Source of the DNA: Flavisolibacter longurius
GTDB lineage: Bacteria; Bacteroidota; Bacteroidia; Chitinophagales; Chitinophagaceae
Direction of reading: 5' to 3'
Assembly: GCA_014163555.1 (NCBI GenBank)
Contig: JACJGO010000024.1
Location: 1-64,000, forward strand
DNA: 64,000 nucleotides
Numbering within the stretch: the stretch's first letter is position 1; every line of letters starts with the position of its first letter. The notes under the pieces were generated by a model, which saw only the letters and a program-made list of their open reading frames with translations, did not search any database and was not told the origin of the DNA. Made by a program: the position numbers and the translations under genes. Shown here piece by piece: positions 36,102-46,558 of the stretch.

Positions 36102-36383
36102 TCACACCAACACATCTCCAAAATCTGGCTTTTTATCAAACACGGCTTTGGCAAACGGACAAACCGGCGATACTTTCATTCCATGCATGCGGGCATACTC
36201 TACAGTTTTGTGCACCAACGAATACCCAATATTTTGTCCTCTTAATTCATCATCCACTTCGGTATGTTCAATGATCATGGTATTATCGCTGCTAACCGTA
36301 TAGGCAAGCTGGGCAAGAATGTCTTCTTCATCAGCAACAAAAAACACACCCCTGTTTTCACCATCTTTATGTTGAATAGTCAT
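36102..36383 (-). CDS. GNAT-like N-acetyltransferase (YjdJ/COG2388 type)
   Basis: A 93-residue minimal GNAT protein. The start is set at MTIQHKDGEN; a longer frame adds 14 residues encoded by the trp promoter region. The acetyl-CoA motif region is EVDDELRGQNIGYSLVHKTVEYAR (RGQNIG corresponds to R/Q-x-x-G-x-G/A), followed by VSPVCPFAKAVFDKKPDF, typical of the small YjdJ-type family. The substrate is unknown. It is divergent from the trp operon: its start codon is about 30 bases from the predicted trp promoter. Confidence 0.85.
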   Translation of the reverse strand: MTIQHKDGENRGVFFVADEEDILAQLAYTVSSDNTMIIEHTEVDDELRGQNIGYSLVHKTVEYARMHGMKVSPVCPFAKAVFDKKPDFGDVLV

Positions 36384-36412
36384 AACTGCTTTTTCTATAC
36401 CTAAAAAAATAT

Positions 36413-36444
36413 TTTGCCAAATCATTCATCCTGCCGCATATTTG
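36413..36444 (+). promoter_or_regulatory. Predicted trp operon promoter
   Basis: TTTG (36413-36416), then 20 bases, then CATATTTG (36437-36444), which fits the Bacteroidota TTTG-n19-21-TAnnTTTG promoter with one mismatch. The leader peptide ATG follows five bases after the box, so the leader mRNA would have almost no untranslated 5' end. Confidence 0.6.
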
Positions 36445-36449
36445 CACAA

Positions 36450-36509
36450 ATGAAAATGATCAGCAATAAATTTTGGTGGTGGCATACAAACTCTTTTGGG
36501 GTTCTGTAA
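36450..36509 (+). CDS. trpL: trp operon leader peptide with three consecutive Trp codons
   Basis: A 19-codon frame, ATG AAA ATG ATC AGC AAT AAA TTT TGG TGG TGG CAT ... CTG TAA. Trp codons at 36474-36482 (residues 9-11) sense charged tRNA-Trp. Stalling there would leave GGGGTTCTG (36498-36506) free to pair with CAGAGCCCC (36539-36547), all nine positions pairing with one G-U. That blocks the terminator at 36542-36566. A ribosome that reaches the stop codon covers the first strand and lets the terminator form. This is the classical attenuation layout directly upstream of trpE. It is too short for routine gene callers. A second ATG (third codon) is an alternative start. Confidence 0.92.
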   Translation: MKMISNKFWWWHTNSFGVL

Positions 36510-36541
36510 CGCTGTTGCCGTTATTTATTTACTATAATCAG

Positions 36542-36566
36542 AGCCCCGCAACCAGCGGGGCTTTTT
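36542..36566 (+). terminator. trp attenuator (intrinsic terminator with competing antiterminator)
   Basis: AGCCCCGC pairs with GCGGGGCT across AACCA, followed by TTTT. The first arm (with three upstream bases) is also the partner of 36498-36506, so terminator and antiterminator exclude each other. It lies 13 bases before trpE. Confidence 0.93.
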
Positions 36567-36578
36567 ATGTTACCGTGT

Positions 36579-37994
36579 ATGAAGAAGATACAAATTGAAA
36601 CGACAGTCCGGAAAATGCTTGCCGATGTGTATACTCCCGTCGGCATTTACCTGCGATTGCGTGACCGCTTTCGGGATACGGTGCTCCTGGAAAGTACTGA
36701 CCACCACGCTGCCGAAAACAGTTATTCTTTTATCTGCATTAATGCTATCGGTGGTATCGAAATCAGGGAAGATGTGGTGGAAACAAAGCTGCCGGGACAG
36801 CCTGCGCAACGAACGCCACTAGGAGGGAACAACCCTCTACAGACGCTTCTTTGGGATTTCACCCAGCGTTTTGAAACGGTTTCTGCCGATTCCAAAGCTG
36901 CCCGGTTTGCACAAGGATTGTATGGCTATTTCACCTTTGACGCGGTGCAGTTTTTTGAAACCATTCAATTTCAAAAAAATAGGGACAAGAATAATCAAAT
37001 TCCTTTTGCCCGCTATCGGTTGTATCAGTATGCAATCGCTATCAACCACTACCGTGATGAATTGATTCTGTTGGAAAATAGAGTGGCCGGTGTGGAAAGC
37101 GAAGGAGAGGTTGTGGAAAGCCTGATCAACAGCAAAGACGTTCCTGTTTTCCCCTTTAAAACAGCATCCGCTGAATCGTCCAATATGGAGGACGACGATT
37201 TTCGCCAGATGGTAAAAAAAGGTATTGCCAGTTGTCATCGTGGCGATGTTTTCCAGATCGTGCTGAGTCGCCGTTTTCAGCAAAAATTTTCCGGAGATGA
37301 ATTCAATGTTTACCGTGCACTTCGGAACATTAACCCATCACCTTACTTGTTTTTCTTCGATTATGGAGATTACAAGCTGGCAGGTTCTTCGCCCGAAGCG
37401 CAACTGATCATTCGCAATGGCAAGGCTATCATTCATCCCATAGCGGGAACGTTCAAACGCTCAGGCGATGATGTAGTGGACCAGCAGCGTGCCGATGAAT
37501 TAACCAGGGATGCAAAAGAGAACGCCGAGCATGTGATGCTCGTAGACCTGGCCCGCAATGATCTCAGCACGGTTTGCACCAATGTGGAAGTAACCCAATA
37601 CAAGCAGATCCAGTACTACTCGCATGTGATCCATATGGTGAGTGAAGTGACCGGTGATATAGCCGAAGGCAGTAATCCGTTTGATGTGTTGTTTAAAACC
37701 TTCCCGGCCGGAACCCTTAGCGGTGCCCCCAAGTACAAGGCTATGCAACTGATCGACAGCCTGGAACCCACAGCCCGCAGTTTTTACGGCGGTGCCATTG
37801 GTTATGTGGGCTTTGATGGCACCTGCAATCATGCTATTATGATCCGAACCTTGTTAAGCAAAGACAATACACTTTTCCTGCAGGGCGGTGCCGGTATTGT
37901 AGCAGCCAGCAATCCTGAAAGTGAATTGCAGGAAGTGGCCAATAAACTGAATGCGTTAAAGAAAGCCATTGAGATGGCGGAGGGAATTGCGTAA
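36579..37994 (+). CDS. trpE: Anthranilate synthase component I
   Basis: A 471-residue chorismate-using subunit that makes anthranilate with ammonia from TrpG. The Trp feedback site is visible as VLLES near residue 35. The chorismate-binding catalytic part shows VFQIVLSRRFQQ, PSPYLFFFDYG, GTFKRSGDDVVD, ENAEHVMLVDLARNDLS and FPAGTLSGAPKYKAMQLID. The start at 36579 (MKKIQIETT) is preferred; an ATG four codons earlier lies in the T-run of the attenuator. It is the first structural gene of the trp operon, controlled by the attenuator and presumably by feedback inhibition. Confidence 0.97.
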   Translation: MKKIQIETTVRKMLADVYTPVGIYLRLRDRFRDTVLLESTDHHAAENSYSFICINAIGGIEIREDVVETKLPGQPAQRTPLGGNNPLQTLLWDFTQRFETVSADSKAARFAQGLYGYFTFDAVQFFETIQFQKNRDKNNQIPFARYRLYQYAIAINHYRDELILLENRVAGVESEGEVVESLINSKDVPVFPFKTASAESSNMEDDDFRQMVKKGIASCHRGDVFQIVLSRRFQQKFSGDEFNVYRALRNINPSPYLFFFDYGDYKLAGSSPEAQLIIRNGKAIIHPIAGTFKRSGDDVVDQQRADELTRDAKENAEHVMLVDLARNDLSTVCTNVEVTQYKQIQYYSHVIHMVSEVTGDIAEGSNPFDVLFKTFPAGTLSGAPKYKAMQLIDSLEPTARSFYGGAIGYVGFDGTCNHAIMIRTLLSKDNTLFLQGGAGIVAASNPESELQEVANKLNALKKAIEMAEGIA

Positions 37995-38059: not shown

Positions 38060-38626
38060 ATGAAGCTGTTGGTGTTTGACAATTACGATTCGTTTACCTA
38101 TAACTTGGTTCACCTGGTAAAGCAGGTGGATAAGAAAATAGAAGTGGATGTATTCCGCAATGACGAAATCCCGCTGGAAAACGTAGCCGGTTACGACAAG
38201 ATTATTTTGTCTCCGGGACCGGGAATACCCTCGGAAGCCGGGCAGTTGCTGCCATTGATAGTGGAGTATGCATCCAGCAAATCCATCCTCGGTGTCTGTT
38301 TGGGTCACCAGGCAATTGGTGAAGCCTTTGGTGGAACACTGGTGAACCTTTCAACTGTTTATCACGGTGTGGCTTTGAATTGCCAGTTACAGTCTTCGCC
38401 CTTGTTTGAAGGACTGCCGGAACAGATTCCTGTTGGTCGCTACCACAGTTGGGTGGTAAGTCGTGAAGGTTTTCCAGAGGAATTGGACATTACAGCGCAG
38501 GATGACAACGGCTATATCATGGCCTTGCAACACAAAACTTACGATGTGCAGGGCGTGCAGTTTCACCCCGAAAGTGTCTTAACACCGGATGGCGAAACGA
38601 TTCTTCGCAACTGGCTGAAGCGGTAA
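38060..38626 (+). CDS. trpG: Anthranilate synthase component II (glutamine amidotransferase)
   Basis: A 188-residue class I glutamine amidotransferase supplying ammonia to TrpE. The catalytic triad is visible as GVCLGHQAIGEAFGG (Cys), with His and Glu in QFHPESVLTPDG. The opening FDNYDSFTYNLVHLV is typical for TrpG/PabA, and the protein might also serve folate synthesis. It follows trpE after 65 bases. The region after its stop carries loosely repeated GAGTTGATAGG-type words and the ATTCGTG tract before trpD. Confidence 0.97.
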   Translation: MKLLVFDNYDSFTYNLVHLVKQVDKKIEVDVFRNDEIPLENVAGYDKIILSPGPGIPSEAGQLLPLIVEYASSKSILGVCLGHQAIGEAFGGTLVNLSTVYHGVALNCQLQSSPLFEGLPEQIPVGRYHSWVVSREGFPEELDITAQDDNGYIMALQHKTYDVQGVQFHPESVLTPDGETILRNWLKR

Positions 38627-38670
38627 AGAGAGTAGTTAAGAGGAGTTGATAGGTTAATAAGTGCTTTGAA

Positions 38671-38716
38671 ATTCGTGCAATCCGTGTAAAAATTTGTGTT
38701 TACAATTCGTGTTTAA
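38671..38716 (+). repeat. ATTCGTG word tract ending at the trpD start codon
   Basis: ATTCGTGCA, ATCCGTGTAAAA, ATTTGTGTTTACA, ATTCGTGTTTAA, then ATG. The same ATTCGTG word with the same ending is found before trpC (39776-39808). Confidence 0.75.
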
Positions 38717-39709
38717 ATGAAGAAGATATTACAACAGCTTTTCGAACATAAAACACTCTCCCGCCAGCAGGCGAAAGAGATTATGCTCAACATTGCCAGG
38801 GGAACCTACAATGATGTAGAACTGACAGCCTTTATAACAGTGTACCTTATGCGTAGCATTACCATCAACGAACTGCAGGGATTCCGTGATGGCCTGCTGG
38901 AACTGGCAGTACCCGTTGACCTGAACGGGCAAAAGGTAATGGACATCGTAGGTACCGGTGGTGATGGCAAGAACACTTTTAACATCTCCACCTTGTCCTG
39001 CCTGATTGTAGCCGGTGCCGGCAAGAAAGTGGCCAAGCATGGCAACTACGGCGCTACTTCGGTCAGCGGTGCTTCCAACGTGATGGAAACGCTGGGTTAT
39101 AAATTCAAAAACAAAAACGATAGCCTGAACCGGGAACTGGATGAAGCGGGATTTACATTTTTGCATGCACCCCTGTTTCACCCGGCGCTAAAAGCAGTGG
39201 CCGGAATCCGCAAAAACCTTGGCTTCCGTACCTTCTTTAACATGCTGGGACCGATGGTGAATCCCGCCAAGCCGGAATACCAATTGGTGGGTGTGTTTAA
39301 CCTGGAGATGGCACGTATTTATAATTACCTGCTGCAACAGGAAGGCAAACCCTTTACCATCATTCATGGATTAGATGGCTACGATGAAATTTCGCTGACA
39401 TCCGATACAAAAGTGATCACCAATGCGGGTGAGAAGGTCTTGTCTGCAGAGCAGATCGGTAAGCGTACCGTTTCACCCATGGATATTTACGGCGGCGGTA
39501 CAGTGGATGAAGCTGCAAAGATTTTCATGAGAGTATTGAAGGGCGAAGGCTCCTGGTCGCAGAACGCAGTTGTGTTGGCAAACGCCGCAATGGCGCTGAA
39601 TTGTATGGGTGATTTTAATACTTACGAAGAGGCATACAATGCTGCCTGCGAAAGTCTCGAAAGCGGGAAAGCACTGGCTTCGTTTCAGAAGTTGATCGCC
39701 ATGCAGTAA
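38717..39709 (+). CDS. trpD: Anthranilate phosphoribosyltransferase
   Basis: A 330-residue enzyme joining anthranilate to PRPP. PRPP/Mg-binding motifs are DIVGTGGDGKNTFNIST (residues about 76-92) and KHGNYGATSVSGASNVMETLG. FRTFFNMLGPMVNPA and GLDGYDEISLT are further family blocks. Length and order are standard, and the N-terminal helical domain starts KKILQQLFEHKTLSRQQA. It is third in the operon and starts immediately after an ATTCGTG word tract, with no Shine-Dalgarno sequence. Confidence 0.97.
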   Translation: MKKILQQLFEHKTLSRQQAKEIMLNIARGTYNDVELTAFITVYLMRSITINELQGFRDGLLELAVPVDLNGQKVMDIVGTGGDGKNTFNISTLSCLIVAGAGKKVAKHGNYGATSVSGASNVMETLGYKFKNKNDSLNRELDEAGFTFLHAPLFHPALKAVAGIRKNLGFRTFFNMLGPMVNPAKPEYQLVGVFNLEMARIYNYLLQQEGKPFTIIHGLDGYDEISLTSDTKVITNAGEKVLSAEQIGKRTVSPMDIYGGGTVDEAAKIFMRVLKGEGSWSQNAVVLANAAMALNCMGDFNTYEEAYNAACESLESGKALASFQKLIAMQ

Positions 39710-39711
39710 AG

Positions 39712-39746
39712 GTTTGTCGTTTATAGTTTGTGGTTTGTAGTTGATG
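39712..39746. repeat. Heptad tract GTTTGTN after trpD
   Basis: GTTTGTC, GTTTATA, GTTTGTG, GTTTGTA, GTTGATG in exact 7-base steps, starting 2 bases after the trpD stop codon. Confidence 0.8.
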
Positions 39747-39775
39747 TAATTTGAAATAAGTAATAGCAAAGCTTT

Positions 39776-39808
39776 ATTCGTGTAATTCGTGAAAAAATTC
39801 GTGTTGAA
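39776..39808 (+). repeat. ATTCGTG word tract ending at the trpC start codon
   Basis: ATTCGTGTA, ATTCGTGAAAAA, ATTCGTGTTGAA, then ATG. It is related to the tract before trpD. Confidence 0.75.
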
Positions 39809-40585
39809 ATGAATATTCTGGAAACCATCATTGAACATAAAAAAGGTGAAGTCGCCCAGCGTAAAAAAGACTGGCCGGTGGCGGTGCTTGAAAAAGAGCG
39901 CTTCTTTAAGAGGACTCCTTTTTCGCTGAAAAAGTTTCTGCTGGATGAACGAAAGACGGGCATTATAGCCGAATACAAACGGCAGTCACCATCAAAAGGC
40001 ATCATAAACAACCGCGACAGCGTAGAGGCCGTTACCAAAGCCTATTTTGGCTATGGAGCTTCAGGTATTTCTATCCTCACTGATCACCGGTTTTTTGGCG
40101 GTTCGCTGGACGACCTGGTAGCGGCAAGGGATAACAGTCTGCCCCTTTTGCGCAAGGATTTTATGATTGATGAATACCAGATTATAGAAGCAAAAGCTTT
40201 CGGTGCTGATGTGATCCTCTTGATTGCTGCCTGCCTTACACCACAGGAGGTAAAAACACTTTCTGTTGCCGCCAGAAATCTTGGACTGGAAGTATTGCTG
40301 GAACTGCACGATGAATCGGAGTTGGACCATATCTGTGATACGGTTGATCTGGTTGGCGTTAATAATCGCAACCTAAAAAATTTTGAAGTGGACCTGGAGC
40401 ATTCGGTAAGACTGGCCGCGCAGATCGATAACCGATTCATCAAAGTAGCGGAAAGCGGCATCAACGATGTAAAAAATATTCACTACCTGAAACAGCATGG
40501 CTTCCGTGGTTTTTTGATTGGTGAATATTTTATGAAGCAAGCCAGCCCCATGATGGCGTTCAAAGAATTTACCTACCAGTTATGA
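39809..40585 (+). CDS. trpC: Indole-3-glycerol phosphate synthase
   Basis: A 258-residue TIM-barrel enzyme converting carboxyphenylamino-deoxyribulose phosphate to indole-3-glycerol phosphate. Visible blocks are IIAEYKRQSPSKGII (catalytic Lys on strand 1), ISILTDHRFFGGS, LPLLRKDFMIDEYQI, GADVILLIAACL, EVLLELHDESEL, VGVNNRNLKNFEVDL and VAESGINDVKNIHYL. All key residues of the family appear present, and it is not fused to trpF. Fourth in the operon. Confidence 0.97.
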   Translation: MNILETIIEHKKGEVAQRKKDWPVAVLEKERFFKRTPFSLKKFLLDERKTGIIAEYKRQSPSKGIINNRDSVEAVTKAYFGYGASGISILTDHRFFGGSLDDLVAARDNSLPLLRKDFMIDEYQIIEAKAFGADVILLIAACLTPQEVKTLSVAARNLGLEVLLELHDESELDHICDTVDLVGVNNRNLKNFEVDLEHSVRLAAQIDNRFIKVAESGINDVKNIHYLKQHGFRGFLIGEYFMKQASPMMAFKEFTYQL

Positions 40586-40673
40586 AGGTGTCGGTAGTAT
40601 CTTTAAGGTTTTTACAGGAGCGGTTTCCTGGTGCTGCGGTTGCTGTTACGATTCACTGTCAAAAAAGGATAGG

Positions 40674-41351
40674 ATGAAAGTAAAAGTTTGCGGCATTACA
40701 CAGCTCGATCAGCTTCTCGCTTTGCCGGATATGGATGTCGACTATGCCGGCTTTATTTTTTATCCGCCCAGTCCGCGGTATGTCGGCAGGACAGGCCTAA
40801 GCGGTGCCGATGTAAAAAGATCCAACGTAAAATTGTACAAAGTGGGTGTATTTGTGGATGCGAGTTATGAGGACGTTATGCGCAGTATTGATGAATACGG
40901 CCTGGATATGGTACAGTTGCACGGCCGCGAAACACCCTACGAATGTCAGAAGATTGTCGCCAATATTGATGTGATCAAAGCCTTTCGTTTTTCGGAAAAT
41001 GACCATGTGGGCTGGATGATCAAAGACTATTATGAAGATGCCGATTTCTTCCTTTTCGATACCGGAGTTCCAGCCCCGAAAGGAGAAAGGGAAAACAAGG
41101 CCTTGTACGGCGGAACTGGCCGCAAGTTCGATTGGAAGCGGTTGCAGGATGTTGCCATCCAAAAACCTTTTTTTCTTAGCGGTGGCATTGAACCGGATGA
41201 TGCGGAAACGGTTCAGGCCTTTATGACAACGCCGGCTGCCAAACACATGATCGCGGTTGATATCAACAGCCGCTTCGAATCGGCGCCGGGAGTAAAAGAC
41301 CTGCAGAAAGTGGAGCAGTTTATTACCGAATTAAAACAATTGCATGGATAA
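40674..41351 (+). CDS. trpF: Phosphoribosylanthranilate isomerase
   Basis: A 225-residue TIM-barrel isomerase acting between TrpD and TrpC. The opening KVKVCGITQLDQL contains the catalytic Cys, and DYAGFIFYPPSPRYV, VGVFVDASYEDV, MVQLHGRETP, FFLFDTGVP with the catalytic Asp, LSGGIEPDDAE and AVDINSRFESAPGVKD follow the family order. The C-terminus overlaps the start of a cupin gene by eight bases, implying coupled translation. The gap from trpC is 88 bases. Confidence 0.97.
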   Translation: MKVKVCGITQLDQLLALPDMDVDYAGFIFYPPSPRYVGRTGLSGADVKRSNVKLYKVGVFVDASYEDVMRSIDEYGLDMVQLHGRETPYECQKIVANIDVIKAFRFSENDHVGWMIKDYYEDADFFLFDTGVPAPKGERENKALYGGTGRKFDWKRLQDVAIQKPFFLSGGIEPDDAETVQAFMTTPAAKHMIAVDINSRFESAPGVKDLQKVEQFITELKQLHG

Positions 41352-41703
41352 AGTAAATCTTGTGCAGAAATTTGACCTGGTAACAGATTATTGGAGCCCA
41401 AAAGTGGTAGGTGATTTGAATGGCCAACAGGTAAAATTGGCAAAGTTTAACGGTGAATTCATCTGGCACCATCACGAAGCAGAAGATGAAGCGTTCTTTG
41501 TTCTGAAAGGAGCGTTTCGGATGGAATACCGTGATCGTTCGGTTACAGTGAACGAAGGGGAGATGTTGATTGTTCCAAGAGGCGTGGAGCACAAGCCTGT
41601 GGCGGATGAAGAAGCGTGGGTAATGTTGTTTGAACCCGACACCACACGCAACACCGGCAACATTGTCAACGAACGAACAAAAACAAGTCTCGAGAACATC
41701 TGA
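41344..41703 (+). CDS. Small cupin-domain protein embedded in the trp operon
   Basis: A 119-residue single-domain cupin. The metal-site motif 1 is WHHHEAEDEAFFVLKGAFRME (His-rich with Glu), and motif 2 is LIVPRGVEHKPVADEE with the further His. This suggests a metal-binding small-molecule enzyme or sensor. It overlaps trpF by eight bases and precedes trpB, so it is made with the tryptophan enzymes. No role in tryptophan synthesis is known for it; sequestering or isomerising a pathway intermediate, or an unrelated function, are both possible. Confidence 0.88.
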   Translation: MDKVNLVQKFDLVTDYWSPKVVGDLNGQQVKLAKFNGEFIWHHHEAEDEAFFVLKGAFRMEYRDRSVTVNEGEMLIVPRGVEHKPVADEEAWVMLFEPDTTRNTGNIVNERTKTSLENI

Positions 41704-41775
41704 CCGGGAAAAAGAAAGATAAACAGGATGCATCCTTTTTTATCCTGCATCCCAATTCAGAAAAATGAAAAAGCT

Positions 41776-43029
41776 ATGAGTTATCATATTACCCGCAAAA
41801 CAGAGGAGAAAGGATCTGCCGTTGAATACGGTTTAACAAAATCATTGTTTGCGCCGGATGAGCAGGGCTATTACGGAAGTTTTGGCGGAGCCTATATACC
41901 CGAGATGCTGCATCGCAACGTGGAAGAGTTGCGGACTAAGTATCTTGACATCATCAATGAAGCTTCGTTTCAAAAAGAGTACAACCAGTTGTTGCAAGAT
42001 TATGTCGGTCGGCCTACACCGCTCTATTTTGCCGAGCGACTAAGCAAACAATATGATGCACAGATCTTTTTAAAACGCGAAGACCTTTGCCATACCGGCG
42101 CCCATAAAGTAAACAATACCGTGGGCCAGATTTTGCTGGCCTTGCGGTTAGGCAAAAAACGCATTATTGCCGAAACCGGCGCCGGGCAACATGGTGTTGC
42201 CACAGCTACGGTTTGTGCATTGAAAGGCATTGAGTGCATTGTGTACATGGGTGAAAAAGACATCGAGCGGCAGGCACCAAACGTAGCCCGGATGAAAATG
42301 CTGGGTGCCAAAGTGGTTCCGGCAACCAGCGGCAGTAAAACGCTGAAAGACGCCACCAATGAGGCCATTCGCGACTGGATCAACAACCCGCACGACACGC
42401 ATTACATCATCGGCAGCGTCGTAGGGCCCCATCCTTACCCCGATATGGTAGCCCGATTTCAAAGTGTGATCTCCGGCGAAATGCGCTGGCAGTTAAAGGA
42501 AAAAACAGGTAGCGAACTGCCCGACAAAGTGATTGCCTGTGTGGGCGGAGGCAGCAATGCCGCAGGCGCCTTTTACCATTTTCTCGATGATACGACCGTA
42601 GAACTGGTAGCGGTGGAAGCAGCAGGCGAAGGCGTGCATTCCGGTAAAACGGCGGCCACCACGCAACTGGGCCGCGAAGGCGTATTGCACGGCAGTAAAT
42701 CGCTGGTGATGCAGACAAGTGACGGGCAAGTGGTGGAACCGCACAGCATATCGGCAGGACTGGATTACCCGGGCATCGGACCGTTGCATGCACACCTTTA
42801 TCGAAGCGGCCGTGGAAAATTTTTAAGTGTGACGGATGAAGATGCGTTAAAAGCATCTTTTGAAGTGGCAAAGCTGGAAGGAATCATCCCGGCGCTGGAA
42901 ACGGGGCATGCCTTTTCAGCCCTGCGGCAATTGGAGCTGAACGAAGGCCAGAGAATTGTAATCTGCCTGAGTGGAAGAGGGGACAAGGACCTGGCAACCT
43001 ATATGCGGGTGATGGATGGTGAGTGGTGA
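41776..43029 (+). CDS. trpB: Tryptophan synthase beta chain
   Basis: A 417-residue PLP enzyme forming tryptophan from indole and serine. The PLP Lys is in [18 protein letters not shown], the phosphate loop is [12 protein letters not shown], and [17 protein letters not shown] and [20 protein letters not shown] are standard. The start is taken at 41776 (MSYHITRKT). A four-codon mini-frame (41765-41779) ends with a TGA overlapping this ATG, which could couple translation. The stop codon lies within a GGTGAGT heptad tract, which also supplies the last coding residues (DGEW). Confidence 0.97.
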
Positions 43030-43042
43030 GTGGTGAATGGTG
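43018..43042. repeat. Heptad tract GGTGAGT across the trpB stop codon
   Basis: GGTGAGT, GGTGAGT, GGTGAAT, GGTG. It puts TGA at 43020, 43027 and 43034, one in each reading frame; the second is the trpB stop. Confidence 0.8.
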
Positions 43043-43083
43043 CTACTTTTTTAGATGTGATTCCTGATCGTAAAATATTTTCA

Positions 43084-43506
43084 ATGAACAGCAAATCGGC
43101 AACATACACAGGTTTTGAATTTGAAGTGGAAGGTTTCCCGGCCCTGGCCGTCATCAACAAAGACCTGGCCGACCCATCATTGCAGGCAGGTTATCCCCAT
43201 GCCGTACTGATCGGCATTGTGCCGGATACGTATAACGAGTACGGTCACCCGACAGAAGAGGAGTATGATTACCTACTGGAGGCGGAGAAAAAAATGATCG
43301 AGTACTTGGAAGAACAGACCCAAACGGTGCATGTTGGTCATACCACGGCTTTTCGCAAGCGGGAAGTAATCTTTTATACAAAAGAGGCCGACAAAGTGGA
43401 TGGCTTTCTCAACTATTATTTATCGACAGTGGAAAGAGAAACTTTCTACGAAATAGAAGCCGATCCGGAATGGAAAAACGTTTCGGCTTTTTACGAATTG
43501 TTATGA
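43084..43506 (+). CDS. DUF695-like protein embedded in the trp operon
   Basis: A 140-residue cytoplasmic protein beginning MNSKSATYTGFEFEVEG. It has blocks PALAVINKDLA, GIVPDTYNEYGHPTEEEYD and FRKREVIFYTKEADKVDGFL, and the pattern matches DUF695-type domains, whose function is unknown. The ATG at 43084 is chosen over an upstream GTG/ATG frame lying in repeat-rich sequence. Its stop overlaps the trpA start (ATGA), so translation of trpA is probably coupled to it. Its position between trpB and trpA is unusual because those two subunits form a complex and are normally adjacent. Confidence 0.82.
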   Translation: MNSKSATYTGFEFEVEGFPALAVINKDLADPSLQAGYPHAVLIGIVPDTYNEYGHPTEEEYDYLLEAEKKMIEYLEEQTQTVHVGHTTAFRKREVIFYTKEADKVDGFLNYYLSTVERETFYEIEADPEWKNVSAFYELL

Positions 43507-44297
43507 GCAGATTATCGGAGCTTTTTACACGGAAAAAAAAGGGTGTCGTCAACGTTTATTGTACGGCCGGCTATCCTCGTTTGGATAGCACGCTGCAGGT
43601 GATGAAGGCACTGCAGGCCAACGGTGCCGACCTGATTGAATTGGGTATGCCGTACAGCGATCCCCTGGCTGATGGCCCGGTGATACAGGCCAGCGGCAGC
43701 AAGGCCCTGCAAAATGGCATGACCATCGCCACGCTTTTTGACCAATTGGACGGTTTCAGAAAGGACATTACGGTACCGGTGATACTGATGGGTTACCTCA
43801 ATCCTTTGTTGCAATACGGCTTTGAGAAGTTTTGCGCCAAAGCGGCGGAAGTAGGGATCGACGGCCTTATCATCCCCGACATCCCCATGTTTGAATTTGA
43901 AAAGGAATACGGTGCCATCATAAAAAAACACGGACTTGATTTTATATTCTTAGTGACCCCGGAAACGTCCGAAGAACGGGTGCGAAAGTTGGACGACTTG
44001 AGCAGTGGATTTCTATATGCCGTGTCGTCATCGAGTATAACGGGTTCGGACAAGGACTTCTCGCCGGTAAAAACTTATCTGCAACGATTGCAGGCGATGA
44101 ACCTAAAGAACCCCGTATTGGTGGGCTTTGGCATTAAAGACAAAGAAACATTTGATGCGGTGGCAGCCTATTCTTCCGGTGCCATTATCGGCACCGCGTA
44201 TATCCGTGCTTTGGAAGACGGGAACGATGTAGAAGGGGCAACAAAAAAGTTTTTGGGAGAAGTATTGGGTGTTGGTGCAAACCGCCAGCCAGTATGA
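43503..44297 (+). CDS. trpA: Tryptophan synthase alpha chain
   Basis: A 264-residue TIM-barrel subunit that cleaves indole-3-glycerol phosphate and passes indole to TrpB. Catalytic Glu and Asp are in LIELGMPYSDPLADGPVIQ, and GLIIPDIPMFEFEKEY and LVGFGIKDKETFDAV (phosphate loop) follow. The start at 43503 overlaps the DUF695 stop; an in-frame start 11 codons earlier is inside that gene. It is the last gene of the trp operon. No obvious terminator follows before the tRNA on the other strand. Confidence 0.97.
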   Translation: MSRLSELFTRKKKGVVNVYCTAGYPRLDSTLQVMKALQANGADLIELGMPYSDPLADGPVIQASGSKALQNGMTIATLFDQLDGFRKDITVPVILMGYLNPLLQYGFEKFCAKAAEVGIDGLIIPDIPMFEFEKEYGAIIKKHGLDFIFLVTPETSEERVRKLDDLSSGFLYAVSSSSITGSDKDFSPVKTYLQRLQAMNLKNPVLVGFGIKDKETFDAVAAYSSGAIIGTAYIRALEDGNDVEGATKKFLGEVLGVGANRQPV

Positions 44298-44318
44298 TAG
44301 ACAAATATTAAAACTAAG

Positions 44319-44391
44319 AGCGGAAGACGGGACTCGAACCCGCTACCTACAGCTTGGGAAGCTGTCGCTCTACCAGGTGAGCTACTTCCGC
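44319..44391 (-). tRNA. tRNA-Gly (anticodon CCC)
   Basis: Read on the minus strand, a 73-base cloverleaf. The acceptor GCGGAAG/CTTCCGC pairs perfectly with discriminator U; the D-arm is GCTC-n-GAGC; the anticodon stem ACAGC/GCTGT holds loop TTCCCAA (anticodon CCC, reading GGG); a 5-base variable loop and T-arm GCGGG-TTCGAGT-CCCGT follow. CCA is not encoded. It lies between trpA and hisH on the opposite strand. Confidence 0.96.
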
Positions 44392-44416
44392 ATGATCAGT
44401 TCACCAGTTTACGAAT

Positions 44417-44477
44417 TTACAAGTTCACGGTTTTTGAAACCATAACTTGTGAACGTGTGAATGAGTGAACTTGTAAA
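44417..44477. repeat. Inverted word repeat before hisH
   Basis: TTTACAAGTTCAC (44417-44429) pairs perfectly with GTGAACTTGTAAA (44465-44477). Further partial copies (GTTCACCA GTTTACGA, CTTGTGAACGTGTGAA) lie before and between. It ends 10 bases before the hisH ATG. Confidence 0.75.
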
Positions 44478-44487
44478 CTAATTTAAA

Positions 44488-45078
44488 ATGAATCTTGCAA
44501 TAATCAAATACAACGCAGGAAATATTCAGTCGGTGATTGCCGCGCTGGAGCGGTTGGGCATTCAAGGGAAAGTGACTGATGATGCGGAAACCATAAAGGG
44601 AGCCGATAAAGTAATCTTTCCCGGGGTGGGAGAGGCCAGCAGCGCCATGGCCAGCTTAAAACAAAATAGCTTGGATAGCGTGATCAAAGACCTCAAACAG
44701 CCGGTTTTGGGCATTTGCGTGGGCATGCAGTTGCTCTGCGAACATTCGGAAGAAAATAACACAACCTGTCTGGGGATTGTACCCGTAAAGGTGAAAAAAT
44801 TTCAACCCGGAAAGGACTGGATCAAGATACCGCAGGTAGGTTGGAACACCATCTACTACCTGCGTTCGACCTTGTTTGCCGGTGTGCCGGAAAACAGCTA
44901 TATCTACAATGTGCACAGTTATTATGCAGAGAGCAGCGATCACACCATTGCAACCTGTAACTATGGCCTCGAATACGCCGCTGCCGTGCAAAAGGATAAT
45001 TTTTACGGCGTGCAATTTCACACGGAAAAAAGCGCCGAAACCGGCGACCGTATCATTCAAAACTTTTTGAACAGCTAA
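44488..45078 (+). CDS. hisH: Imidazole glycerol phosphate synthase, glutaminase subunit
   Basis: A 196-residue glutamine amidotransferase that feeds ammonia to HisF in histidine synthesis. The catalytic Cys is in LGICVGMQLLCEHSEE, and His/Glu are in GVQFHTEKSAETG. FPGVGEASSAM and WIKIPQVGWN are HisH-specific blocks. The stop overlaps the hisA start by one base (TAATG). It is first of a compact hisHAF unit, preceded by a long inverted repeat but no recognisable His leader peptide. Confidence 0.97.
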   Translation: MNLAIIKYNAGNIQSVIAALERLGIQGKVTDDAETIKGADKVIFPGVGEASSAMASLKQNSLDSVIKDLKQPVLGICVGMQLLCEHSEENNTTCLGIVPVKVKKFQPGKDWIKIPQVGWNTIYYLRSTLFAGVPENSYIYNVHSYYAESSDHTIATCNYGLEYAAAVQKDNFYGVQFHTEKSAETGDRIIQNFLNS

Positions 45079-45797
45079 TGGAGATCATACCCGCAATTGA
45101 TATTATTGAAGGCAAATGCGTCCGGCTTACGCACGGCGATTATGCGCAAAAGAAAATCTACAACGAACACCCTCTGGAAGTAGCCCGCCAGTTTGAAGAT
45201 GCGGGCCTGCAGCGATTACACCTTGTTGACCTGGATGGCGCCAAAGCCGGTGCTGTCAAGAACTGGAAGGTATTGGAAACCCTTGCCGGCAAAACCTCTA
45301 TGGTAATCGACTTTGGTGGCGGCATCAAGTCGGAAAAAGACGTGCAGATCGTTTATGATTCCGGTGCCGCAATGGCCACGGTGGGAAGCATGGCGGTAAA
45401 AGAAAAAGAAACCTTTGTGTTATGGCTGCAAAAATGGGGCGCCGAAAAATTCCTGCTGGGTGCCGATGTGAAGGGAGAAAAGCTGACCATTAGCGGCTGG
45501 CTGGAACAAACGGAGATTTGGATCTATGACTTTATAGAAGACTATATCCGAAAAGGCGTGCAGCAGATCTTTTGCACGGATGTTTCCAAAGATGGTGCAC
45601 TGGAGGGACCTTCCACGGAACTGTACCGGAACATCATTAAAAAATTCCCGGACCTGCATTTTATTGCCAGTGGCGGGGTTAGTTCGCTCGACGATGTGTA
45701 CCAATTGAAGGACATCGGCTGTAAAGGCGTCATTATTGGCAAAGCCATTTACGAAGGGCGGGTGCAATTATTGGATCTTAAAAAACTGAATGCATAA
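45078..45797 (+). CDS. hisA: Phosphoribosyl-formimino aminoimidazole carboxamide ribotide isomerase
   Basis: A 239-residue TIM-barrel isomerase. The opening [24 protein letters not shown] contains the catalytic Asp8 (AID), [10 protein letters not shown] and [15 protein letters not shown] bind phosphate, [16 protein letters not shown] gives the second catalytic Asp, and [13 protein letters not shown] is the last phosphate loop. It is coupled to hisH by a 1-base overlap and followed by hisF after two bases. Confidence 0.97.
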
Positions 45798-45799
45798 CT

Positions 45800-46558
45800 A
45801 TGCTGGCAAAACGAATCATTCCCTGCCTCGATATCAAGGACGGCCGTACGGTAAAGGGTACCAATTTTGTAAACCTGCGGGATGCCGGCGACCCGGTGGA
45901 GCTGGCGGCCAGCTACGCGAAGCAGGGTGCTGATGAACTGGTGTTCCTCGACATTACGGCGACCGTGGAAAAACGCAAAACGCTGGCCGAACTGGTCAAA
46001 CGCATTGCCCATACCATCAACATTCCGTTTACGGTGGGTGGCGGTATCAAAACCGTTGACGATGTTTCGGTTTTGCTGAACCACGGGGCGGATAAAATTT
46101 CGATCAACACGGCTGCGTTTCAGTCGCCGCAGGTGATCACCGATATTGCCAATACAGCCGGCAGCCAGTGCGTGGTACTGGCCATCGATACACGACAGGA
46201 AGAAGATGGCGAATGGTATGTGTACCTGCATGGTGGTCGTACCAAAACAGGCACCAAATGTTTCGACTGGGCCAAAGAAGCGGTGGAAAGAGGCGCCGGT
46301 GAGATCCTGCTCACATCGATGAATCATGACGGCACGAAAGCCGGTTTTGCATTGGACATTACCAGGCAACTTTCAGAACGGTTGCCCATCCCCGTTATTG
46401 CCTCAGGTGGCGGTGGCACGAAGCAGCATTTTGCCGATGTGTTTAACCTGGCGCATGCTGATGCAGCCCTGGCTGCGAGTGTTTTTCATTTTAAAGAAAT
46501 TGAAATACCAGCGCTCAAAACGTTCCTGGCCGATCAGCATATTGCCGTGCGACAATAA
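45800..46558 (+). CDS. hisF: Imidazole glycerol phosphate synthase, cyclase subunit
   Basis: A 252-residue TIM-barrel cyclase, partner of His[21 protein letters not shown] carries the catalytic Asp11. [49 protein letters not shown] with the second catalytic Asp, and [14 protein letters not shown] are standard. It is last in the hisHAF unit. hisIE, which often follows in Bacteroidota, is not present here. A CTATTG-type heptad tract follows and runs up to the tamB-like stop codon. Confidence 0.97.

Follow-up and report, generated by a model that had tools for sequence, protein, structure and literature searches.

In the trp leader of Escherichia coli, trpL, two tandem Trp codons precede trpE, and the RNA behind them can adopt the alternative pairings 1:2, 2:3 and 3:4, together with an intrinsic terminator. 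Related devices are described from an alphaproteobacterium and an actinobacterium: in S. meliloti the ribosome-dependent attenuator trpL/rnTrpL lies before trpE(G), and its RNA begins at the ATG of a small Trp-rich ORF for a 14-aa peptide (PMC7298713), while in S. lividans the leaderless trpL1, with an 18-aa WWW leader, hairpins and a uridine-rich stretch, precedes a monocistronic trpE (PMC8079986). Naville and Gautheret in 2010 presented a Firmicutes case of leader-peptide attenuation of their own and wrote that, to their knowledge, none had been shown earlier beyond the Proteobacteria and Actinobacteria, save for an atypical antibiotic-resistance leader (PMC2965389). In the Bacteroidota, "strong clues" for such attenuation before amino-acid biosynthesis operons are mentioned for Flavobacterium psychrophilum, in a paper whose main text contains neither "trp" nor "tryptophan" (PMC9723704), and the open-licence literature that we searched yielded no described trp attenuator from this phylum.

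Here we analyse a locus of this phylum in a stretch of 64,000 nucleotides (the window) that is part of the 5.66 Mb Flavisolibacter-like genome of a soil bacterium; in the best-matching segment its trpE is 90% identical to that of Flavisolibacter longurius. An element preceding trpEGDCF-BA is very likely a ribosome-mediated transcription attenuator of the trp operon. Its mechanism is ordinary and of a known kind, and it is widespread in Bacteroidia; this breadth and a start site locked to the promoter are the interesting parts. Unless stated otherwise, features lie on the plus strand and are numbered from the first base of the window.

The leader peptide and its four RNA strands

The leader ORF MKMISNKFWWWHTNSFGVL (36450-36509, stop included) has 19 sense codons between its ATG (36450-36452) and its TAA (36507-36509). 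It contains three consecutive Trp codons, TGGTGGTGG (36474-36482), which form the predicted stall site and the outer part of RNA strand 1; tandem codons for the end product are thus found in a short leader ORF 5' of Trp biosynthetic genes, as in the class of leader-peptide attenuators. On the two strands of the 64 kb window, 18 ORFs encoding 8-40 aa have an A..TTTG box 3-10 nt in front of their start; among them the trp leader ORF alone is accompanied by a terminator at the score used.

Strand 1 (36474-36494) comprises the Trp codons and the codons next to them and pairs with strand 2 (36498-36520), which consists of GGGGTTCTG (36498-36506), the 5' side of the antiterminator, and the bases that follow it. 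In the minimum-energy fold the 1:2 hairpin spans about 36466-36528: the three Trp codons and one further base (36474-36483) are paired with 36511-36520, and an inner helix joins 36485-36494 to 36498-36508. The anti-antiterminator hence takes in the regulatory Trp codons. The fold of the leader has an energy of -37.8 kcal/mol; shuffled sequences gave -29.2 (sd 3.6), and 3 of 200 were as low. Strand 3, CAGAGCCCC (36539-36547), is the 3' side of the antiterminator and overlaps the 5' arm of a predicted intrinsic terminator (36540-36566), such that the 2:3 pairing excludes the terminator; GGGGTTCTG and CAGAGCCCC can pair at all nine positions, one of them a G-U. The terminator, which sequence and fold place between the leader ORF and trpE, has a stem of 36540-36549 with 36555-36564 around the loop AACCA, a core of AGCCCCGC (36542-36549) and GCGGGGCT (36555-36562), and a T run to 36566, and a terminator scan returned the same 10-bp stem (36540-36564).

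A preliminary description of this DNA had proposed trp attenuation from the leader ORF, its Trp codons, the nine-position pairing and the terminator to 36566; the sequence bears out each of these features at the coordinates given there. It had called the attenuator complete; strand 1 was left out, and the complete switch therefore has four strands. It had also stated that the elements are spaced as in enteric bacteria. The match to that spacing is inexact: the leader stop codon comes directly after GGGGTTCTG, within the strand that forms the 1:2 stem, and falls 5' of the GGGG motif of strand 2 in 4 of 80 aligned leaders (L008, L010, L015 and L043).

At the window locus no Rfam family reaches its cut-off. 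The best match is RF00513 (Trp_leader), with 30 bits and an E-value of 1e-4 in 141 bases against a gathering threshold of 41; the whole model can be aligned to 36471-36568, where its first stem starts near the third Trp codon and the second stem corresponds to the terminator. Of the 80 near and 35 wider trpE loci described below, 20 from each set were scanned, with no Rfam match at cut-off. RF00513 exceeded its cut-off in none of 118 genomes of the phylum, the E. coli control being matched, and reached E <= 0.001 in eight of the 118, own genome included. The T-box family RF00230 had no match at the operon.

The presumed controlled genes

The first gene under the presumed control is trpE (36579-37994; alternative start ATG 36567), identified with NCBIfam. 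The model trpE_most matches it with an E-value of 2.9e-126 and 422.1 bits, under the curated cut-off of 517.7, and the six best NCBIfam models are all for anthranilate synthase component I; the TrpE proteins of relatives align from MKKIQIET. It is followed on the same strand by trpG, trpD, trpC, trpF, a small cupin protein (41344-41703), trpB, a DUF695 protein (43030-43506) and trpA (38060-44297 altogether). Cut-offs were passed by trpG (a subfamily model), trpD, trpC (one model), trpB and trpA, and no NCBIfam trpF model reaches its cut-off at trpF. The trpA ORF as listed overlaps that of the DUF695 protein, so trpA probably starts later. Judging by gene order and strand, we presume that trpE to trpA are co-transcribed.

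Downstream of trpA lie a minus-strand tRNA-Gly (CCC) and likely hisH, hisA and hisF genes, named from Pfam families and order (44318-46558). The tRNA gene separates trpA from the latter, so that the trp and his gene groups are adjacent in this genome; interruption of his operons by trp genes is reported from Thermoflavifilum and Filimonas (PMC8305728).

Conservation among near relatives

A tblastn search found 438 trpE relatives, of which the best 80 were kept; this set is therefore biased to near kin. TGGTGGTGG occurs within 400 nt 5' of trpE in 79 of these 80; the remaining relative (L055) has just 45 nt of upstream sequence and is unscorable, with the terminator end visible. The full layout of TGGTGGTGG, G-rich strand, C-rich strand and terminator is present in 79 of the 79 relatives with enough upstream sequence, in support of the trp attenuation first read from the window. 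These 79 and the window make up the 80 rows of the alignment, in which the terminator ends of two (L062 and L075) were set by hand. Counted from the first base of the Trp codons, GGGG starts at 22-25 nt and CCCC (or CCTC) at 64-77 nt. The leader starts with ATG in 76 rows and GTG in four, and ends with TAA in 72 and TAG in eight. The GGGG motif falls in reading frames 0, 1 and 2 in 22, 43 and 15 rows, respectively, and the peptide accordingly ends in ..GVL, ..RGL or ..KGL, among others, over an unchanged RNA motif. Since the G-rich strand is read in three frames, it is the base sequence and not the peptide tail that appears to be selected.

With no structure supplied, RNAalifold recovered two 1:2 helices and the terminator from the 80 aligned leaders. 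Together with the minimum-energy fold this indicates that strand 2 has two rival partners, strands 1 and 3, as in the textbook enteric trp switch. Coupled changes are seen across the 2:3 stem; for example, GGGGTTCTG goes with CAGAGCCCC, GGGGTCTG with CAGGCCCC or CAGACCCC, and GGGGCTTG with CAAGCCTC. When partner strands were swapped among rows, in a test that ignores relatedness and whose effects within the family are small (a difference of 0.8 kcal/mol for 2:3), the native pairs were the more stable for 2:3 (62 distinct pairs; -11.69 vs -10.92 kcal/mol; native value equalled in 1 of 5000 permutations), 1:2 (64 pairs; -7.30 vs -6.88; 7 of 5000) and the 3:4 terminator (75 pairs; -18.59 vs -16.23; 0 of 5000). 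The coupled variation thus backs a mutually exclusive antiterminator, with the reservation that it takes no account of kinship and that 2:3 is weak beyond its four G-C pairs in several rows (L011, L025 and L071, -7.1 kcal/mol). Conserved tandem Trp codons and alternative stems in close relatives, which the preliminary description had named as a check on its reading, are hence found in both the alignment and the swap tests.

The leaders were also folded with a ribosome placed on them, its footprint assumed to reach 13 nt from the A site. All 80 rows pair CCCC with the strand-2 side when the ribosome sits on the third Trp codon, and all 80 form the terminator when it is at the stop; with no ribosome all 80 again form the terminator, GGGG being paired upstream in 79. 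As GGGG and CCCC are nearly invariant, this outcome is a consistency check that follows largely from two short conserved motifs.

The promoter and the predicted start

Upstream of the leader lies a Bacteroidota-type promoter, with a -33 element TTTG (36413-36416) and a -7 box CATATTTG (36437-36444); the consensus sequences TTTG and TAnnTTTG are those of PMC7366714. In the column profile of the 80 rows, T, T and G of a TTTG(G) motif are strongly kept about 20 nt 5' of the -7 box. A small GNAT-like acetyltransferase ORF (PF14542) on the minus strand (36102-36425) is divergently oriented to the neighbouring trp leader; it begins with an ATG (36425) between the two promoter elements, so the -33 element is inside that ORF. 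A sigma-70 type promoter scan is uninformative for Bacteroidota.

Taking as leader start the ATG, or else the GTG, that lies farthest from the Trp codons at a distance of up to nine codons, we found an A..TT[TC]G box 4-9 nt 5' of the start in 80 of 80 rows, at a spacing of 7 nt in 52, 6 nt in 12, 8 nt in six, 4 nt in five, 5 nt in four and 9 nt in one. By comparison, such a box at this spacing precedes 10 of 504 ORFs that begin with ATG and have 150 codons or more, taken from both strands of these 79 loci; not all of these ORFs are genes. In F. psychrophilum the -7 box occupies -12 to -5 (PMC9723704), from which transcription here is predicted to start at about 36449, five bases past the G of the box, with a 5' UTR of 1 nt in the window and 0-5 nt across the rows. 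The transcript would therefore be near-leaderless, and would begin no farther downstream than the 36450 on which the preliminary description depends. Leaderless transcripts make up 5.5% of mapped mRNAs in F. psychrophilum (PMC9723704), and about 3.7% of 5' UTRs in B. thetaiotaomicron are shorter than 10 nt (PMC7366714).

Distribution in Bacteroidia

For a wider view, we looked for trpE in two samples of 60 genomes each, one from the class, where 22 gave a match at 1e-60, and one from the order, where 15 did; two genomes, one of them the own genome, belong to both samples. This gave 35 trpE loci besides that of the window, 33 of them with at least 120 nt upstream. An ORF with a Trp pair followed by a terminator precedes trpE at 29 of these 33 loci, 27 of the 29 being outside the own family; four (L152, L154, L159 and L175) lack a Trp-pair leader with terminator. 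The Trp motifs are WWW in 21 of the 29, WW in five, and WRWW, WCW and WRW in one each. At a score of 20, which all 29 reach, the leader finder returned none of 942 control segments from elsewhere in these loci and 2 of 660 dinucleotide-shuffled sequences; without a score threshold it returned 43 of the 942 and 25 of the 660. Most of the examined related genomes with trp genes thus carry what looks, from sequence, like the same design before those genes.

A swap test on the 29 loci, pairing the strand after the Trp codons with the own terminator arm and loop, gave -16.67 for native against -11.89 (sd 0.58) for swapped combinations, with none of 10000 permutations as good as native; the own partner was the best of 29 in only eight rows (median rank 3), and the test was not blind, as the loop had been joined to the partner strand after inspection of the rows. 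A TTTG 4-9 nt 5' of the leader start is present at 16 of the 29 loci; the near-leaderless layout is therefore less uniform outside near kin.

At six loci (L165, L168, L170, L156, L163 and L153) strand 2 is GTGAACAGC-like, in some cases coinciding with the last leader codons, and its partner is made up of the terminator loop and the 3' end of the 5' arm, a somewhat different antiterminator geometry. Four other trpE leaders (L158, L159, L171 and L154) have WCW, WCC, WRW or a single Trp codon and are possibly weaker or decaying sensors.

A roughly calibrated family-level model of the trp leader, R1, matches 117 of 195 genomes of the family at E <= 1e-5. In one genome that it does not match (G007), trpE is preceded by a WWW leader whose sequence is different (L150). 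In a phylum sample R1 matches 91 of 395 genomes at E <= 0.01; the 10 matches below 1e-11 are all in the own family, the own genome among them, and a weak match outside the family (G012) sits just 5' of the trpE of its genome. In the own genome the next best match after the trp leader has an E-value of 0.1. A loose genome-wide pattern (TTTG, gap, ATG, gap, TGGTGG) gave 121 matches against 51 for the reversed pattern and was uninformative.

Proposed mechanism and alternatives

The sequences show the anatomy, its conservation and the coupled variation of the stems. From these we infer where transcription would start and end, how the ribosome would stall and sense tRNA-Trp, and in which direction the operon would be regulated. 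RNA polymerase would start about one base 5' of the leader ATG, and a ribosome would load at once. When charged tRNA-Trp is scarce, this ribosome would stall on the three TGG codons and cover strand 1, leaving strand 2 free to pair with strand 3; with its 5' arm thus occupied, the terminator would not stop the polymerase, which would continue into trpE. When Trp is plentiful, the ribosome would reach the stop codon and cover strand 2, or would depart and let 1:2 form; in either case 3:4 would fold and transcription would stop near 36566.

A peptide that is read in this way might instead act in the ribosome itself, as a TnaC-like arrest peptide, with nascent WWWHTN stopping the ribosome in response to free tryptophan and not to codon hunger. 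The residues HTN are indeed common after WWW: the first codon encodes His in 74 of the 80 rows and the second Thr in 68. These counts are of rows and not of events, and the conservation looks like that of RNA, the His codon being CAT in 73 rows and the synonymous CAC in one, with another residue in six, and the Thr codon, beside ACA, having six synonymous rows against 12 with another residue. Moreover, a one-base shift turns the tail HTNS..GVL into HTTLRGL with the RNA motif kept, the residues past the Trp codons vary among the wider loci, and the sign of such regulation would be odd for a biosynthetic operon. Chiefly because the reading frame of the leader changes, we regard a peptide sensor as highly improbable. 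More improbable still is that the terminator is constitutive, or an insulator separating genes, and that the ORF before it arose by chance. Terminator-like sites alone are not rare, since 13 occur in 8.8 kb, about as many as in shuffles (mean 10.4, sd 3.0); yet WWW, strand 2 and terminator stand together in every scorable near relative, and a Trp-pair leader with terminator recurs at the 29 wider loci against none of the 942 control segments. A constitutive terminator between a conserved promoter and trpE would, in addition, be expected to silence the operon. The constant company of Trp codons and promoter thus argues against a plain terminator.

Another Trp-responsive device, such as a repressor, a T-box or TRAP, could be the main control, with the leader in a minor role, an arrangement compatible with an attenuator. 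Many operons carry two layers of control. Against this stands the genome, which at an estimated completeness of 99.82% has no match to the Trp repressor family PF01371 (the E. coli and B. subtilis controls match) and none to the T-box RF00230 in the 150 of 155 candidates scored (the controls, B. subtilis and four others, match). We consider a dominant second device improbable, and retain ribosome-mediated attenuation as the reading of the locus.

Implications and comparison with known systems

Such attenuation would make the regulation of the trp operon predictable for most of the sampled Bacteroidia trpE loci, and the leader belongs to an RNA family that the cut-offs of Rfam release 15 miss in the loci scanned. 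It also offers a conserved, apparently near-leaderless translation start for study in bacteria that initiate without Shine-Dalgarno sites, and a ready reporter for ribosome-polymerase coupling in Bacteroidota. A further possibility, somewhat less likely than not, is that leader-peptide attenuation is old and general for trp operons in Bacteroidia, with the promoter locked to the leader start codon in Chitinophagaceae. If this were so, ribosomes would be loaded onto a nearly leaderless RNA emerging from the polymerase, and the spacing from promoter to AUG would coordinate the ribosome with the polymerase in a phylum that lacks Shine-Dalgarno initiation; the trp leader would then be natural evidence for transcription-translation coupling in Bacteroidota.

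The leader shares with E. coli trpL the tandem Trp codons before trpE, the three alternative pairings and the intrinsic terminator, and differs in having three Trp codons, a stop codon in strand 2 and a predicted 5' UTR of about 1 nt. It resembles S. meliloti rnTrpL in being a probable ribosome-dependent attenuator before trpE; the RNA start at the ATG described there is for our locus a prediction, and both the host lineage and the peptide of 14 residues are unlike those found here (PMC7298713). The similarity to S. lividans trpL1 extends to the WWW motif, the hairpins and the run of uridines, and the actinobacterial host and the monocistronic trpE set that system apart (PMC8079986). As both of these described trp leaders are leaderless, a near-leaderless start is not new in itself.
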